The translations under genes and the position numbers were made by a program. The notes under the pieces are model-generated. The model was not told the origin of the DNA. It saw only the letters and a program-made list of their open reading frames with translations, and searched no databases. This document shows, one piece after another, positions 27,331 through 51,748 of a DNA stretch of 62,742 nucleotides (the first letter of the stretch is position 1; every line of letters starts with the position of its first letter). Source of the DNA: Selenomonadales bacterium (lineage in GTDB: Bacteria; Bacillota; UBA994); NCBI GenBank assembly GCA_018335585.1, contig JAGXRZ010000039.1:1-62742 (forward strand), written 5' to 3'.

Positions 27331-28695
27331 ATCGCTAAGCGCATTCTTCTGGTGGACGACGACCCGCTGACACTTGATGCTCTGCGGGCTAGTTGCGAGG
27401 CGGCGGGCTTTGAGCTAATTAACGCCCAGGATGGACCAAGTGCGCTCCGCCTCGCCATGCGCGAGCGCCCCGACCTCATTATCCTTAACGGGTTGCTGCC
27501 GGCAACCTCGCGCTTAGAGGTTGTGCGCGAGGTGCGACGCAACACGCTTGTTTCCCATGTGCCGATTATGATTCTCGCCTCCGGCAGCACGACGGAAGAC
27601 GTCGTGGCAGCACTCGACGCCGGCGCCGACGATTTCTTACATAAACCCTTCGACTTGTGTGAGTTAATGGCCAGGATAAAGTCGCAGCTTAGGCGGTCCT
27701 GTCAGGAGCGCTCCCTTAACCCCTTGACCGGGCTTCCCGGCAATGTCACTATTGAAGCCGAGTTTAAGCGACTCGTGGCAGCCAAGAAGCCTTTCGCGGT
27801 AATCTACGCCGACATCGACAACTTTAAATCCGTCAATGACGCCTACGGATTTCTGCAGGGCGATGAAGGGATAAAACTGCTGGCGGCGATTCTCCTTGAC
27901 GCCGTGCGTAGGTTTGGCCACCCCTACGATTTTGTGGGGCACGTAGGCGGAGACGACTTTGTCGTCTGTACCACGCCCGACAAAGCAGATGCGGTCTGCC
28001 AACACATTATTCGTTTGTTTACGGCCCAAGTGCCTTTTCTCTATCATCCCCTCGACCGCGCGCGCGGCTATATTGCCGGCGTCAATCGACAAGGGCAGGC
28101 AGTCCGCCACACCGTCGCCACCATCAGCCTGGCCGTAGTTACGAACGAGCGTCGGGCGATTGAGTCGCACTGGGAGATTGGCGAGATTGCCGCAGAGCTT
28201 AAGCGCGCCGGCAAGCAGATTCCGCACAGCATCTATATTAAGGACCTGCGCGGCACGGGAGAGGGGCAGGAGGCGCCCCCGGCTGAGCGTCCGGATTTCT
28301 CGTCCTTACCGCCGACGGCACTCGTTACGGACGACCCGGTGCTTAGGGTGGTCAGTCCCACTATCTTTAGGCGCCATGGCTTTACGGTGCGCATTTGCGA
28401 CACCTTAGCTGAGGCGACGAGTCTCTGCCCGGCTGTGCTGATTATAGACACAGAGACGCGCGCCGTCGACAGCGAAGCCGTTTTGGCTTGGGCAAGGACG
28501 GGTAGGCCGGTTATTCTGCTAGGCTTCCTGCTTGACGACTCTTTGCGCGGCGTAGCTTCCGGGGCGGTAGCCAAACTAGAGAAACCGGTCGACCTTTCGA
28601 CATGTGCGGAACACCTCGGTTACCTGTATAGGCAGCTGCTGTCGCGCGCTAAGGCGAGCAAGTTCCATGCCGCGGCCGTCAGCGGCGAAGAGTGA
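27331..28695 (+). CDS. REC-GGDEF-REC protein with degenerate receiver and GGDDF motif
   Basis: About 454 residues. Residues 1-125 are a receiver fold (RILLVDDDP) whose phosphoacceptor position reads ILNGLLP, with Asn replacing Asp, although the K of HKPFD is kept. Residues 130-300 are a GGDEF domain with the altered motif GGDDF. Residues 320-440 form a second receiver-like domain. The start is uncertain: GTG 27352 would remove the first beta strand, while no ATG, GTG or TTG exists upstream before TGA 27322. AGGAG at 27317-27321 is correctly spaced for ATC 27331, an uncommon start codon. It may be a c-di-GMP cyclase with relaxed motif or a non-phosphorylated scaffold. Confidence 0.75.
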   Translation: MAKRILLVDDDPLTLDALRASCEAAGFELINAQDGPSALRLAMRERPDLIILNGLLPATSRLEVVREVRRNTLVSHVPIMILASGSTTEDVVAALDAGADDFLHKPFDLCELMARIKSQLRRSCQERSLNPLTGLPGNVTIEAEFKRLVAAKKPFAVIYADIDNFKSVNDAYGFLQGDEGIKLLAAILLDAVRRFGHPYDFVGHVGGDDFVVCTTPDKADAVCQHIIRLFTAQVPFLYHPLDRARGYIAGVNRQGQAVRHTVATISLAVVTNERRAIESHWEIGEIAAELKRAGKQIPHSIYIKDLRGTGEGQEAPPAERPDFSSLPPTALVTDDPVLRVVSPTIFRRHGFTVRICDTLAEATSLCPAVLIIDTETRAVDSEAVLAWARTGRPVILLGFLLDDSLRGVASGAVAKLEKPVDLSTCAEHLGYLYRQLLSRAKASKFHAAAVSGEE

Positions 28696-28765
28696 CGCGC
28701 GACTTGACAGCGCTAAACGAGAGTGTCATTCTAAGTACATCAAACAAAAGTTGAGGTGTGCCGTA

Positions 28766-29221
28766 TTGCTCGAACACTCTGTGGTGGAGGAAGTCCGCGA
28801 CATCCTAAAGGAACGCGAGTTTAGGCTGACTCCGCAGCGCGAAGCGATTCTTAAGATTTTGCTTGACCATAAAGATACACATTTGACCGCGGAAGACATA
28901 TACCAGATGACGCGCGACAAGAACCCCGAAATTGGGCTGGCCACCGTATACCGCACCTTAGACCTATTTGCGGGGCTAGGCATCCTCTCGCGTTTAGACT
29001 TTGGCGAGGGCGGCAGAAAGTACGAGCTCGCCGGGGAGCGCGAAAAGCATTACCACCACCACCTGCTTTGCCTAGGCTGCGGCGACATAATTGAGTTTAA
29101 CGAAGACTTGCTGGAAGAACTAGAGGAGCGCATTTCAGCCAGTAAGAACTTCAAAATAGTTGACCACAGCTTGCGCTTCTTTGGCTTCTGCCACGCTTGC
29201 CGGGACAAGCATGAAAGCTAA
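28766..29221 (+). CDS. Fur/PerR family metalloregulator
   Basis: A 151-residue Fur-family repressor: winged helix with RLTPQREAILKILLDHKDTHLTAEDIY and the recognition segment IGLATVYRTLDLF, then the metal-rich KHYHHHLLCLGCGDIIEF and the C-terminal CHAC pair (structural zinc site CxxC...CxxC). TTG 28766 has GAGGTG seven bases upstream; the longer frame from 28604 overlaps the previous gene. Whether it is Fur, Zur or PerR cannot be told with certainty. It is followed directly by a copper-type CsoR gene (11-base overlap), so it belongs to a metal/selenium gene cluster. Confidence 0.88.
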   Translation: MLEHSVVEEVRDILKEREFRLTPQREAILKILLDHKDTHLTAEDIYQMTRDKNPEIGLATVYRTLDLFAGLGILSRLDFGEGGRKYELAGEREKHYHHHLLCLGCGDIIEFNEDLLEELEERISASKNFKIVDHSLRFFGFCHACRDKHES

Positions 29222-29474: not shown

Positions 29475-29486
29475 GGAGGTCTTAGC

Positions 29487-29696
29487 ATGCAGGAAGTAAT
29501 CTTTACCGTAACCGGGATGACGTGAGGCCACTGCAAAGCGGCCGTGAGTCGAGCGTTATCGGCGTTACCTGGTGTACGAACCGTCGCGGTAGATTTAGCT
29601 AACCGCAAAGTGACCGTCTCTTACGACCCGGGGCTCGTGTCTTTAGCGGCCATGCGCGGCGCTATTTCGTCCGCAGGCTACGAAGCCGAGGCCTAG
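29487..29696 (+). CDS. CopZ-like heavy-metal-associated (HMA) protein with UGA (Sec) in the metal site
   Basis: ATG 29487 after AGGGAGG opens a 69-residue frame if the TGA at 29523-29525 (codon 13) is read through. It reads EVIFTVTGMT-U-GHCKAA, then a ferredoxin-like HMA fold (VRTVAVDLANRKVTVSYDP, SAGYEAEA). HMA proteins carry GMTCxxC to bind Cu(I) between two Cys; here the first Cys is UGA. In-frame homology continues on both sides, and the selA, selB and selC genes follow directly, so Sec is far more likely than a nonsense mutation. GGCC/GGCC arms right after the UGA could form a small bSECIS hairpin. Cotranscribed with csoR. Confidence 0.83.
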
Positions 29697-29722
29697 GAAA
29701 GAAACAAAAGGGGACGTCAAAA

Positions 29723-29790
29723 CAAAAGGGACGGTTCTTTTTGTTCTAGAAACAGAAACCAGAACAAAAGGGACGGTTCTTTTTGTTTCA
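29723..29790. repeat. Two copies of a AACAAAAGGGACGGTTC hairpin repeat
   Basis: AACAAAAGGGACGGTTCTTT followed by TTGTT occurs at 29723-29748 and again at 29763-29788; a variant is at 61.35 kb and a related AAGCAAAAGGGACGGAGC form at 8.06 and 55.54 kb. The arms AACAAAA/TTTTGTT pair and are followed by T residues, so they may act as weak terminators. They separate the HMA gene from trxB. Confidence 0.65.
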
Positions 29791-29818
29791 GACTACTAAA
29801 TGAGTAGGGGGAATTATT

Positions 29819-30754
29819 CTGCCTGAGGTATATGATGTGCTTGTTATCGGCGGCGGACCGGCCGGCCTCACCGCCGCACTCTACACGGCGCGCGCTAGGC
29901 TGCGTACGCTTTTGCTCGAACGCTTAGCCCCGGGCGGCCAAATGGCGACTACCGCGCACGTAGAAAACTACCCCGGCTTTCCAGAAGGCCTGAACGGGGT
30001 AGACCTTTCGCTACGCATGCTAGAGCAAGCCGAGCGCTTTAATGCCGAGATTGTCTATGACGAAGCGCAAAGCCTAGAGCTTAGCGGGCCCGTCAAAGTT
30101 GTGCGCGGCCTCGGAGGGACATATGAAGCGCGAGCGGTTATCGTAGCCGCAGGCGCATCTCCGCGCCGCCTCGGTGTACCGGGGGAAGAGAAATTTATCG
30201 GCGCGGGTGTCTCTTATTGCGCGACCTGTGACGGCGCGCTGTACACCGGCAAGCGCGTGGTGGTGGTAGGCGGCGCGGATTCAGCCGTGGAGGAAGCATC
30301 GTTCCTAACGCGTTTCGCCGCGCAGGTGACGATTGTCCACCGCCGCGACCGCTTGCGCGCTACCCCGATTATTGTCGAGCGTGCGCTAGGTAACCCCAAA
30401 ATCCAAGTAATGTACGATACCGTGGTCGAAGCCATCTACGGCGAGCGAGCGGTGACGAGTGTTATGGTGCGCAACGTCAAGTCGAACGCCACAGAGACAA
30501 TCGCTGCCGACGGGGTGTTTGTCTACATCGGGCTAGTGCCAAACGCCGAGTTCGTGCGCGATAGCCTGCCTAAAGACCAAAGCGGGTATTTGCTGGCTAA
30601 CGAACACGACCTTTCGACTGCGGTTCCGGGCGTATTTGTGGCCGGCGACGTGCGCCCCAAAGGCCTGCGTCAGGTAGCGACAGCAGTAGGGGACGGGGCC
30701 TTAGCCGCTAATAGCGTGGAAAAGTACCTGAGCGGAGTACCTAACCATGGGTGA
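29819..30754 (+). CDS. trxB: Thioredoxin reductase
   Basis: About 311 residues with FAD-binding GGGPAGLTAALYTARA, redox-active CATC (in SYCATCDGAL), NADPH-binding VVVVGGADSAVEEA, and the C-terminal FVAGDVRPKGLRQVATAVGDGA. The natural N-terminus EVYDVLVIGGG begins upstream of GTG 29837; the best ribosome site, AGGGGG at 29806-29811, fits CTG 29819, a rare start codon, and no ATG/GTG/TTG is available there. It overlaps selA by eight bases, so it is part of the Sec operon. It may reduce selenium compounds or the HMA selenoprotein; a second TrxB is encoded in the grd operon. Confidence 0.88.
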   Translation: MPEVYDVLVIGGGPAGLTAALYTARARLRTLLLERLAPGGQMATTAHVENYPGFPEGLNGVDLSLRMLEQAERFNAEIVYDEAQSLELSGPVKVVRGLGGTYEARAVIVAAGASPRRLGVPGEEKFIGAGVSYCATCDGALYTGKRVVVVGGADSAVEEASFLTRFAAQVTIVHRRDRLRATPIIVERALGNPKIQVMYDTVVEAIYGERAVTSVMVRNVKSNATETIAADGVFVYIGLVPNAEFVRDSLPKDQSGYLLANEHDLSTAVPGVFVAGDVRPKGLRQVATAVGDGALAANSVEKYLSGVPNHG

Positions 30755-32144
30755 CGAGCTGTATCGTCTGCTGCCGCAGGTTGACGAAGTGCTGCGCACG
30801 CCGACCTTTGCCGCGCTCAGCGCGCAGTTTGGCCGTTCGGCTGTGCAACAGGCACTGCGGGAGGAGCTGCAGCATTTGCGCCAAACTATTGCCGCAGGTA
30901 AGACTAAGGCTAGCGACATTGCGCTCGCTATAGATAATCTCAAAGACGCGTTGCCAAAGCGGATTCTTAAGCACGCGCGCCAAAGCCTGCGGCGGGTAGT
31001 TAACGGCACAGGCGTCCTGCTTCACACTAACCTTGGACGCGCTCCCTTAGCCCCTAGCGCTATCCAGGCAATTGTTGAGGCCGCGCGCGGGTATTCGACA
31101 CTTGAGTACAACCTAGAACAAAAGGAGCGCGGCTCGCGCCAAGACCACGTGCGCGATCTCCTTACGGAACTGACCGGCGCCGAAGACGCCTACGTCGTCA
31201 ACAATAACGCCGCCGCCGTGCTCCTAGTGTTGTCGGCATTAACCGCTAAGCGCGAAGTCGTAGTGTCGCGGGGCGAACTTGTAGAGGTAGGCGGCTCCTT
31301 TCGGATTCCGGAAATTATCGAGCAGGGCGGCGCCCGGCTTAAAGAAGTGGGCTCTACTAACAAAACGCATCTCTGCGACTACGAGCGGGCAATTTCGTCC
31401 GAGACTGCGGCACTGCTTAAGGTACATACCAGCAACTACCGCATCGTCGGGTTTACTGCGGCAGTAGAGGCGTCGGACCTAGTGGCCTTAGCGCGCGCGC
31501 ACGGACTCCTCGCTATCTGGGACCTTGGCAGCGGGGTTCTGGTGCCCGACTTTGCCGAGCCGACAGTCAAAGACGCGGTGGCGCAAGGGCTAGACCTCGT
31601 CACCTTTAGCGGCGACAAGCTGATGGGTGGACCGCAGGCGGGGGTTATTGTAGGCCGGCGCGCGCATATCGAAGTTATCAAGCGGCATCCGCTCGCGCGT
31701 GCGCTGCGCATAGATAAGCTCACGCTAGCGGCCTTGGAGGCGACGTTGCGCCTCTACCGCTACAGCGAAACAGAAGACCAAGTGCCGCTCCTCGGCATGT
31801 ACAGACGCAGCACAGCAGAGCTGCAAACTGCGGCAGAATCCCTCGTGGCGGCCATCAACGGCATGGATTGCCTGCGCGCGAAAGCTGTAGCCTCAGTCGG
31901 GCAGATGGGCGGAGGCGCCATGCCCACACAGGAGATACCAAGCGTGGCGGTGGCTATCACCTCGGACAAACTGAGCGCCACACAGCTCGAAGAGAGTTTG
32001 CGCAACGCCGCCGTCCCGGTCATCGCGCGCTTGGTGCAGGATGAAGTATGGCTGGACATGCGCACAATTCTAGCCGGCGAGGCGGACGACATATTGTCCG
32101 CTTTAGCCGCAGCACACAGCGCTTGCAGGGACCGGCAGGCATGA
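30747..32144 (+). CDS. selA: L-seryl-tRNA(Sec) selenium transferase SelA
   Basis: A 465-residue PLP enzyme with the SelA landmarks [34 protein letters not shown], and [14 protein letters not shown], in which K291 binds PLP. It converts seryl-tRNA(Sec) to selenocysteinyl-tRNA(Sec) using selenophosphate made by SelD. ATG 30747 overlaps the trxB stop, and the TGA overlaps the selB ATG. Together with selB, selC and selD within 7 kb it gives a full bacterial Sec system. Confidence 0.96.
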
Positions 32145-34042
32145 AGCATCTTATTGTAGGCACCGCCGGCCACATTGACCACGGCAAGACAACGTTAATT
32201 AAGGCCCTAACCGGCATCGACTGCGACCGCCTCAAGGAAGAGAAGGAGCGCGGCATCACCATTGACCTCGGCTTCGCCTACTTTGATTTGCCCAGTGGCA
32301 GGCGGGCGGGCATTGTCGATGTCCCCGGGCATGAGCGCTTCATCAAGAACATGCTAGCCGGCGTTGGGGGCATGGATTTGGTGCTCTTGGTCGTGGCCGC
32401 CGACGAGGGAGTAATGCCGCAAACCACCGAACACCTGCACATTTTGTCGCTCTTGCAGGTAAAGCGCGGTATTGTCGTAATTACCAAAGCCGACTTAGTA
32501 GAACCCGACTGGCTCGATCTAGTGATGCTCGACATCGAAGAGAAGGTGCGCGGCACGGTCATGGCCGATGCACCGGTGATTGCGGTTTCGGCCCATACAG
32601 GCGAGGGTCTGGCGGAACTAACCGCGGCCATCGACCGCCTAGGTGAGGATTTGGCCGAGCGCGACGCCCACCTGCCGTTTCGGCTGCCCGTAGACCGCGT
32701 TTTTACACTGCAGGGCTTTGGCACGGTAGTAACCGGCACCTTGCTTTCCGGCACTGCCCGGGTAGGCGACCAGGTTCTGCTCTATCCGGCCGAATTGCCG
32801 CTGCGCGTGCGCGGTGTGGGCGTGCATGGAGTGCAAGTTGAGTCAGCGCAGGCCGGACAGCGCGTGGCGCTAAACCTCGCGTCCGTTACTGTCGACGCCA
32901 TTTCGCGCGGCGACGTATTAGCGGCCAAGGGGTATCTTTCGCCAAGCATGATGCTCGATGTCCGCCTCTCTCTCCTGCCTGATGTCGACAAGCTGCTGGC
33001 TAATCGCGCGCGTTTGCGCCTCTATGTCGGCACGGCAGAAATCCTCTGCCGCGCCGTGTTGCTTGACCGCGATGAGCTTCTCCCGGGCGAAAGCGCTTAC
33101 GCGCAGCTGCGCCTGGAGGCGCCGACGGCTGTTTTGGCGGGCGACAGGTTTGTTTTGCGCTCGTATTCACCTCTGGTCACTTTAGGCGGCGGCACTATTC
33201 TCGACCCGAACCCAAAAAAGCGCAAGCGGTTTCGCGAGCGTGGCCTAGCCGAGCTAGCCGTACTAGAAAGCGGCAGTACGGAGGAGATTGTAAGTCAGTA
33301 TCTGCTTGAGCACAGCGACAAGCTCTACACGCGCGAGACGTTACTGCGCGTAATTACGCGGGCGGACTGCGAGGAAGCGCTAGAAAAGCTCTTAACCGAC
33401 GACTACGTAGTCAGCGTACACGCTGACGATGCCGAATACCTGTTTCATCGCGCTCGCCTCAAGTCCTTAACCGACCAAGTAGCAACCGCAGTCGGCGAAT
33501 ACCACCGCCGCTTCCCACTCCGCGCGGGCATACCGCGCGAGGAGCTCAGGCATAGGGTGTTAAGCGGTGCTAGTAGTCGAGTCTTTGCTGCTGTACTCCT
33601 AGAGCTACAAGCGGAGTCACCCCTAAACCTGACGACAAAATCTGTGGCCCTGCCTGACTTTCGCGTGGAGTTTACGGGCAAGTGGAGTCGCGCCCGCGAG
33701 GCAGTTATCGCCGCGCTCTTAGCGCAGCCGTTCTCCCCACCTTCGCCTGAGGAGCTAAGACCCGAACTGCGTCTGTCTCCGGAAGACATGAAGGAGCTCC
33801 TAGACGCCCTGGCAGATACACAGGAAATAGTTAAGGTGGCGGAAGGCATGTACTTTCACGCCTCGGCCGTGAGCCGCGCGCGCGAGCTCCTAATCGCGCA
33901 TTTTGGCACTGAGGGGGAACTCTCCCTTGCCGCATTTCGAACCTACATCGACAGCAGCCGCAAATACGCTCTACCGCTGCTTGAGTACTTCGACCAACAG
34001 CGCGTCACCTACCGTGTCGGGGAAACACGCAGGCTGCATTAG
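32141..34042 (+). CDS. selB: Selenocysteine-specific elongation factor SelB
   Basis: A 633-residue translation GTPase: G1 [14 protein letters not shown]2 region [10 protein letters not shown]3 DVPGHERF, G4 TKAD, followed by EF-Tu-like domains 2 and 3 ([19 protein letters not shown]) and a C-terminal winged-helix region (from about residue 375) that binds the bSECIS hairpin. It delivers Sec-tRNA to UGA codons. The ATG overlaps the selA stop (ATGA). Four candidate UGA targets lie in this window. Confidence 0.96.
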
Positions 34043-34846: not shown

Positions 34847-34943
34847 GGGAGTAGATAGGTTCTGGTGTGCCTTCCGGACTTCAAATCCGTCAGCGGTCTC
34901 TAGAACAGGCCGCGGTGGGTTCGATTCCCACATACTCCCGCCA
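34847..34943 (+). tRNA. selC: tRNA-Sec (anticodon UCA)
   Basis: The 97-base sequence begins GGGAGTAG and ends ATACTCCCG plus an encoded CCA, with discriminator G. The acceptor arm pairs over at least seven bases (the eighth is G opposite A). The anticodon arm CGGACTTCAAATCCG carries TCA at 34881-34883. A long variable arm (GCGGTC...GGCCGC) and the T arm GTGGGTTCGATTCCCAC follow. Length, long variable arm and UCA anticodon identify tRNA-Sec. It is flanked by selA/selB and selD. Confidence 0.95.
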
Positions 34944-49939: not shown

Positions 49940-50404
49940 ATGCTTAAGGGCAAGAAAGTGGTCATCCTCGGTGACCGCGACGGAGTGCCCGGTCCCGCCA
50001 TCGAAGAATGCGTTAAGTCCGCCGGCGGGGACGTGGTGTTTTCCGTTACCGAGTGCTTTGTCTGAACGGCCGCAGGTGCCATGGACCTAGAGAATCAACG
50101 TAGGGTAAAAGAAATTGCCGAGAAGAACGGCGCCGAGAACGTGATCGTGGTTCTCGGTGGCGCAGAAGCAGAGGCCGCAGGCCTTGCTGCCGAAACCGTT
50201 ACCGCCGGCGACCCTACCTACGCAGGTCCTTTGGCCGGAGTCCAGTTAGGACTCGCAGTTTATCACATTTTCGAACTTAAAGACCACGTTGACGCCGGTG
50301 TCTACGACGAGCAAATCAGCATGATGGAAATGGTGCTTGACGTCGACGCCATCACGGCCGAAGTCAGCGGCATGCGTAAGGCACACAGCAAATACGGACA
50401 GTAA
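49940..50404 (+). CDS. grdA: Glycine reductase selenoprotein A (Sec at residue 42)
   Basis: A 154-residue protein when TGA 50063-50065 is decoded as Sec: [18 protein letters not shown], the invariant CxxU redox motif with C39 and U42. The start [19 protein letters not shown] is typical. The selenol accepts the carboxymethyl group from protein B and passes it to protein C as a thioester-forming intermediate; the resulting selenosulfide is reduced by thioredoxin. ATG 49940 follows AAAGGAGG. GC-rich sequence after the UGA could form the bSECIS. Standard annotators would report only the part from 50081. Confidence 0.96.
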
Positions 50405-50434: not shown

Positions 50435-51748
50435 ATGAGCAACCAGAAACTCAAGGTAGTTCACTACCTGAACCAGTTCTACGGTGGTATCGGCGGTGAA
50501 GATAAAGCCGACCATCAGCCGGAAGAGCGCGCGGGGGCGCTAGGCCCGGGACAGGCGCTGCAGGCAGCGCTTGGCACCGAGGCCGAGATTGTGGCCACCG
50601 TCATTTGCGGCGACGGTTATTTCGCCGAGAACCTTGACGCAGCCTTGCACACCGTCCTCAAGATGATTAAGGCCCACACCCCGGATATCGTCGTTACCGG
50701 TCCCGCGTTTAACGCCGGCCGCTATGGCGTAGCTTGCGGCGCAGTGGCTAAAGCCATTTTCGAGGAGCTGCACATTCCCGTTGTCAGCGGCATGTACCAT
50801 GAGAACCCCGGCGTAGAAATGTACCACCGCTTTGCCTACATTGCCAAGACCGGCAACAGCGCAGCCGACATGCGCAAAGCTATCCCGGCTATCGCTAACT
50901 TAGTTAAGGCGCTCGGCAAAGGTGAAGAAGTAACGCCCGAAACGCACGCCTACCTACCCCAAGGCTTGCGCAAGAATTACTTCCACACTGAGCGCGGTGC
51001 CAAGCGCGCCGTGGACATGCTGGTAGCCAAAATCAACGCGCAACCCTTCACCACCGAGTACCCCATGCCGCACTTTGACCGTGTGGCCCCCAATATGCCG
51101 ATTGCCGACGCTAGGAAAGCAAAGATTGCCCTAGTTACCTCCGGCGGCATCGTGCCTAAGGGCAACCCCGACCATATTGAGTCCTCTAGTGCTAGCCACT
51201 ACGGCAAGTACGACATTCGCGACGTAGCCGATTTAACACCGGAGAAGTATGCCACCGCGCACGGCGGGTACGACCCCGTCTACGCTAATCTCGATTCCGA
51301 CAGGGTGCTCCCGGTAGATGTACTGCGCGAAATGGAGCAAGCCGGTGAAATCGGCGAACTCCACCGCTACTTCTACACCACCGTCGGCAACGGCACTTCG
51401 GTCGCCAACTGCGCCGCTTTTGCCAAGAAGTTTGCGCAGGAACTAGTTAACGACGGAGTGCAAGCGGTCATCCTTACCAGTACCTGAGGTACCTGTACGC
51501 GTTGCGGTGCAACGATGGTAAAGGAAATTGAGCGCGCCGGCCTGCCTGTAGTGCATATGTGCACTGTAGTCCCCATTTCGTTGACTGTAGGAGCCAATAG
51601 GATTGTCCCGACTGTGTCTATTCCGCACCCGCTCGGCAATCCTCAGATGCCTCCCGCCGAGGAAAAGGAGCTGCGCCGTCGCCTAGTGCAGAAGGCCCTC
51701 CGCGCCCTCGAGACCGAGATTCACGGCCAGGTAGTTTTCGACAAGTAG
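50435..51748 (+). CDS. grdB: Glycine reductase complex component B, gamma subunit (Sec at residue 351)
   Basis: A 437-residue selenoprotein. TGA 51485-51487 lies in the conserved LTST-U-GTCTRCGATMVKEIERAG, the UxxCxxC motif of GrdB/PrdB proteins. The frame on both sides is homologous (VVHYLNQFYGGIGGEDKA at the start; GLPVVHMCTV and VPTVSIPHPLG at the end). With processed GrdE it forms protein B, which activates glycine. ATG 50435 follows AAGGGGGG. A strong hairpin terminator lies just beyond its stop. Confidence 0.96.

Follow-up and report, generated by a model that had tools for sequence, protein, structure and literature searches.

The locus between csoR and the sel genes of a Selenomonadales contig (62,742 nucleotides, referred to here as the window) raises the question of whether a small metal-binding protein is made with selenocysteine (Sec) in place of one of its two metal-ligating cysteines. 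A first-pass annotation of this DNA had read GMT-U-GHC at the site where HMA proteins carry GMTCxxC, and the coordinates, the frame and the motif all proved exact, with a Pfam HMA match to the translated product (Table 1). The read-through product of this gene, sec-copZ, begins MQEVIFTVTGMT-U-GHCKAAV, and with TGA translated as U the full sequence is MQEVIFTVTGMTUGHCKAAVSRALSALPGVRTVAVDLANRKVTVSYDPGLVSLAAMRGAISSAGYEAEA. The TGA is the sole defect of the open reading frame and falls exactly at the first metal-binding Cys; the CxxC pair of HMA chaperones is thereby absent, and would be UxxC if Sec is inserted. As had been anticipated, gene calling with table 11 misses the gene: all it returns is a fragment of 50 residues that starts at an internal GTG (29544). 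Because TGA acts as an ordinary stop in the window, where it terminates 16 of the 48 genes, the genetic code is standard, and a reassigned code at sec-copZ is ruled out. Judged from the reading frame and its relatives, the observation that sec-copZ encodes a predicted selenoprotein form of HMA/CopZ is real.

Table 1. Features of the sec-copZ locus, in window coordinates.
Feature	Position	Strand	Basis or remark
Fur-family regulator	28604..29221 (listed ORF; the actual start is probably near 28767)	+	NF051892; conserved upstream of csoR
csoR, copper-type repressor, C32-x24-H57-x3-C61	29211..29474	+	NF052430 RicR best match
Ribosome-binding-site-like GGAGG stretch (GGGAGG), before the sec-copZ ATG	29475..29480	+	sequence
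sec-copZ, 69-residue HMA (CopZ-type) protein, GMTUGHC	29487..29696	+	translation with TGA as U; ATG at 29487, TGA as codon 13, stop TAG (29694-29696) included
Probable bSECIS region, -6 to +30 around the UGA	29517..29552	+	synonymous conservation; two candidate folds
In-frame TGA, Sec13, first metal-ligand position of CxxC	29523..29525	+	same codon in all ten homologues
trxB, thioredoxin reductase	29837..30754 (start maybe a few codons upstream)	+	TIGR01292 above cut-off; conserved position
selA	30747..32144	+	TIGR00474, 573.7 bits
selB	32141..34042	+	TIGR00475, 371.5 bits; ORF listed from 32048, profile match from 32150
selC, tRNA-Sec, anticodon TCA	34847..34943	+	ARAGORN; Rfam RF01852, 72.8 bits

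The Pfam HMA model spans residues 6-66 (E 4.7e-20), i.e., the whole of this short protein, and the residues that make up the HMA signature near the metal loop have been retained. Among the 15 NCBIfam families compared, the best match was the CopZ family NF033795, at 76.9 bits, short of its cut-off (91 bits); another CopZ model came second and NF041115 next, with the MerP and MerT/CopZ models lower. An AlphaFold model, computed with C substituted for U, had a pLDDT of 92 and the beta-alpha-beta-beta-alpha-beta order of HMA domains, with residue 13 immediately preceding helix 1; the closest solved folds found by Foldseek were CopZ 6ff2 and Bacillus subtilis CopZ 2qif (TM 0.94-0.95). In the genome from which the window comes (G000), no other stand-alone HMA protein was found. 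The remaining HMA domains sit in P-type ATPases, which include a CopA with two Cys-type HMA domains, encoded outside the sec-copZ operon on contig C20.

To ask how widely the UGA is kept, we used a class set of G000 (2.34 Mb) and 14 other genomes. Nine of the others carry one TGA at the same codon in a frame that is otherwise intact, at 49-82% identity: three are of the same genus, four come from the rest of family f1, and family f3 supplies two. The first-pass annotation had pointed to UGA-bearing homologues in organisms lacking selB or selC as the finding that would speak against Sec; within the class, both genes are present in every member, with selB and tRNA-Sec scoring above their cut-offs in 15/15 genomes. 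When a profile of the ten Sec-CopZ sequences was searched against 398 genomes of the phylum, matches were obtained in 235. Among the best matches listed, the stop is present in the ten class sequences alone, and it aligns to Cys in the others. Comparative evidence of this sort is the usual basis for recognising a selenoprotein. This distribution bears on the reading of the UGA as a genuine stop, through a pseudogene, a sequencing error, or an arrangement of a 12-residue leader followed by a 50-residue internal-start product. The GTG at 29544 would indeed yield 50 residues, and the copy in G005 (L184, G005:C130, about 1085-1180) has decayed, being intact for some 20 codons including the UGA and then interrupted by stops; the copy in G006, of the same genus, is intact. 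However, ten genomes in two families keep the TGA together with constrained sequence on both sides of it, and neutral decay would not spare that stop alone. Thus, the conservation across ten genomes disposes of both the error and the pseudogene explanations, and termination at this codon, which we consider very improbable, is already largely refuted by these comparisons.

For signs of a bSECIS in the RNA, conservation was analyzed at the level of codons. Synonymous identity, counted over sequence pairs sharing the amino acid, was 95% at codons 18-22 versus 51% at the other informative codons of the eight f1 sequences. Counting from the UGA's first base, these codons lie 15-29 bases on, so that the peak falls 5-9 codons past the UGA. 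In permutations, codons 18-22 gave p 0.0002 and the best run of five codons anywhere gave p 0.007; since codons 18-22 were picked after the data had been seen, the latter is the fair figure. This is consistent with selection acting on the RNA after the UGA, as a bSECIS demands, and such a signal is probable here. Its fold can be drawn in two competing registers. In the first, folded over bases -6 to +30, a hairpin of approximately -4 to +28 has the UGA inside it; its stability exceeds that of synonymous shuffles clearly in G012 and G013 (p 0.003-0.004) and weakly in others, with a mean z of -1.5. Covariation in the UGA-enclosing hairpin is weak, with three pairs changed on both sides and 11 of 500 shuffles equally good. 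A hairpin lying wholly downstream, looped at about +20 to +24, fits all ten sequences by eye, with no covariation among them and no unusual stability. The first-pass annotation had proposed looking for a simple hairpin after the UGA, and folding energy gave it no support: from +12 to +36 the stability was no greater than that of synonymous shuffles. A search of the sec-copZ region with the Rfam SECIS families at a permissive threshold gave no match.

The neighbours of sec-copZ form a run in one direction, comprising a Fur-family regulator, csoR, sec-copZ, trxB, selA, selB, two small genes and tRNA-Sec. The placement of the gene between csoR and selA/selB, as first described, is borne out, with csoR ending 12 bases upstream and selA, selB and selC downstream; trxB, which had gone unmentioned, intervenes. 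The description of a U-containing HMA protein beside a copper regulator likewise stands: this CsoR is of the copper type, its C-x24-H-x3-C triad, which has the spacing of the Cu(I) site in the CsoR family, being kept in 12 of the 12 relatives examined. The order fur-csoR-copZ(U)-trxB-selA recurs in eight genomes spanning two families (G000, G004, G008-G012 and G014), with selB next after selA in seven of them and the contig of G011 ending within selA. G013, in which the contig edge falls at copZ, is a ninth genome with a copper-type csoR directly upstream. As a separate observation, a 33-base repeat, CAAAACAAAAGGGACGGTTCTTTTTGTTCTAGA, occurs twice in near-identical form (91%) in the gap between sec-copZ and trxB, at 29718-29792; both copies are roughly self-complementary and may represent a REP-like element or an attenuator.

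With trxB as the next gene in eight genomes, the main rival to a copper-binding function is a selenol/thiol redox protein, in which a UxxC selenenylsulfide would be reduced by the adjacent TrxB and metal binding would be secondary or lost. Among selenoproteins, UxxC is often encountered as a redox motif (PMC13188914). Set against a redox role are the copper type of the CsoR, the retention of the HMA signature around the metal loop, a copy in another family that sits with copA instead (G117, described below), and the gene order of three genomes, G005, G006 and G007 (L126, L128 and L127), in which fur-csoR-trxB-selA-selB is found without copZ, the Sec gene of G006 lying elsewhere. That the block persists without copZ indicates that csoR and trxB are not there solely for copZ; a dedicated partnership of trxB with CopZ is weakened by the same observation. 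We regard the redox reading as unlikely. In two further genomes, G002 and G003, a Cys-type CopZ (GMSCMHC) is encoded directly before selA (L124 6925-7104 and L125 5422-5601, respectively), so the linkage of CopZ to the sel genes is either older than the Cys/Sec state or independent of it.

The same arrangement could mean that Sec is inserted for the sake of selenium economy, the protein acting as a gauge of selenium status or as a carrier and tying the sel operon to copper sensing. The gene does lie within a csoR-trxB-selA-selB-selC run, still headed by csoR where copZ is gone; but the copies in G006 and G117 are away from sel genes, and we give this explanation a low probability. The three genomes in which csoR heads trxB-selA-selB without copZ suggest that copper may control the Sec machinery itself. 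An extended circuit, in which a Cu(I)-responsive CsoR runs an operon of the Sec chaperone with trxB, selA, selB and selC, such that copper would raise Sec synthesis and copper export would need selenium, is a tentative proposal that we hold to be doubtful.

To find other HMA proteins with Sec, the 398 phylum genomes were searched by pattern and the matches were filtered by frame; most of those outside HMA frames were due to chance. A second stand-alone Sec-CopZ (MNTVVLKVSGMTUNHCVGV...) was obtained in G117, a genome of another family, directly downstream of a copA whose HMA domain is of the Cys type. As to UGA homologues without Sec machinery beyond the class, G117 has a tRNA-Sec (67.3 bits) and no match to selA or selB. 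Given that this genome is 81% complete and that another member of its family has selB, the absent matches probably reflect missing contigs and are not read as a counterexample. In four further genomes the UGA falls in a P-type ATPase, where it takes the place of the first Cys in one HMA domain: domain 2 in G002 (L119, C67) and G003 (L120, C193), with the motifs GMTUAAC and GMTUASC, and domain 1 in G085 (L161 and L191, C74) and G092 (L160, C336), both of which have selB. In all four, the other HMA domain of the ATPase keeps Cys, and in G002 and G003, where Sec is in the ATPase instead, CopZ is of the Cys type. On the origin of the Sec form, a tree built on 69 columns is too weak to choose between one and several; three changes are the most parsimonious, and a single origin is possible.

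Which metal would such a protein bind? The copper-type CsoR, the copA-copZ(U) pair of G117 and the predicted CopZ fold make a Cu(I) chaperone the most likely function, and Sec-CopZ is probably a cytosolic Cu(I) chaperone with an Se/S ligand pair that serves a Cys-type CopA. SelB and tRNA-Sec would decode the UGA at codon 13, aided by an RNA signal around and just after it, as its conservation suggests. In the modelled ferredoxin-like domain, the loop would present the selenol of Sec13 and the thiol of Cys16 in place of two thiols. Bound by Se and S together, Cu(I) would then be held in the cytosol and delivered for export to CopA, at its Cys-type metal-binding domains, with the adjacent Cu(I)-type CsoR presumably controlling sec-copZ. 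A selenol is ionised at neutral pH and is a softer ligand, and on this chemistry it may raise Cu(I) capture or speed transfer. Selenols also bind Hg(II) very tightly, and the annotations of known Sec-HMA relatives point to mercuric or heavy-metal transport, which is what can be said for a trap for mercury, silver or another soft metal, resembling MerP or the MerT/CopZ fusion selenoprotein. Yet no mer gene was recognised among the conserved neighbours, the upstream CsoR is of the copper type, the G117 copy is beside copA, and Sec-CopZ opens directly with its HMA domain and lacks the signal peptide that MerP has. A soft-metal trap is accordingly improbable in our estimation.

We compared the predicted copper chaperone with known systems, of which the HMA selenoproteins had gone unmentioned in the first-pass annotation. 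B. subtilis CopZ (2qif), CopZ 6ff2 and NF033795 share its length, HMA fold, GMT-x-xxC loop and CsoR neighbour, and presumably its delivery of Cu(I) to CopA; they differ in that here the first Cys is replaced by Sec and the gene keeps company with a sel operon instead of copA. NF041115, reported as a putative mercuric reductase, is also a small HMA-like selenoprotein of about 70 residues, but has two Sec (UxxU) versus one here (UxxC), and Sec-CopZ scores 59.9 bits against its cut-off of 95. NF045683, a MerT/CopZ fusion-like heavy metal transport selenoprotein, has a CopZ-like HMA domain in common, whereas it is a MerT fusion of 235 positions and Sec-CopZ is a free soluble domain (32.1 bits against a cut-off of 375). 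For the E1-E2 cation-transporting ATPase selenoproteins (e.g., ABB15669.1), the motif given is UxxC (PMC13188914), with which the four ATPases found here agree, Sec in these four taking the place of the first Cys in an HMA domain; those are large P-type pumps, whereas at the present locus the chaperone has Sec and CopA keeps Cys. A MerP selenoprotein of the HMA family was reported in 2008 from two GOS marine metagenome sequences (PMC2398784); as described there it is by label a mercuric transport protein. The cd10141 CopZ-family (2Fe-2S) selenoproteins share the name CopZ and the presence of Sec, but contain a BFD-like iron-sulfur domain in place of the HMA domain (PMC13188914).

The table of 119 prokaryotic selenoprotein families in a 2026 review (PMC13188914) includes the cation-transporting ATPase (UxxC), a MerT-like protein, NF041115 and two CopZ-family BFD-like [2Fe-2S] entries; it has no entry for an HMA-type CopZ with UxxC. 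A search among openly accessible papers returned no description of an HMA CopZ selenoprotein. The UxxC form of HMA-type CopZ is thus an addition to the HMA selenoproteins already known. If the proposed function is correct, this would be a metallochaperone in which selenium serves as a metal ligand and not as a redox catalyst. The Cys form of CopZ is among the best-studied metal-transfer systems, and the effect of exchanging S for Se on Cu(I) affinity and transfer would be directly measurable. CopZ and CopA-type HMA domains show a recurrent exchange of Cys and Sec at one shared position, offering a natural series on the cost and worth of selenium. Short HMA reading frames broken by UGA in Sec-using genomes are, moreover, a class of genes dropped by annotation.

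For two genomes of the class set, the same proteins are also encoded on public contigs: QLUS01000019.1 (Bacillota bacterium HKB212) those of G013, and QLUB01000023.1 (labelled candidate division NPL-UPA2 GPS119) those of G012. Judging by the record names, their habitats may be the serpentinite springs of Hakuba and The Cedars. Firmicutes with glycine reductase have been described from these springs (PMC9751293), in a study that does not name the isolates of the two contigs. In the window itself, standard ORF calling splits two genes of glycine reductase, grdA (49940-50404, + strand; Sec TGA at 50063-50065) and grdB (50435-51748, + strand; Sec TGA at 51485-51487, with an Rfam SECIS_4 match just after it), and two more genes of glycine reductase type lie downstream. 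Since both grdA and grdB carry Sec codons, Sec is in use in this organism.
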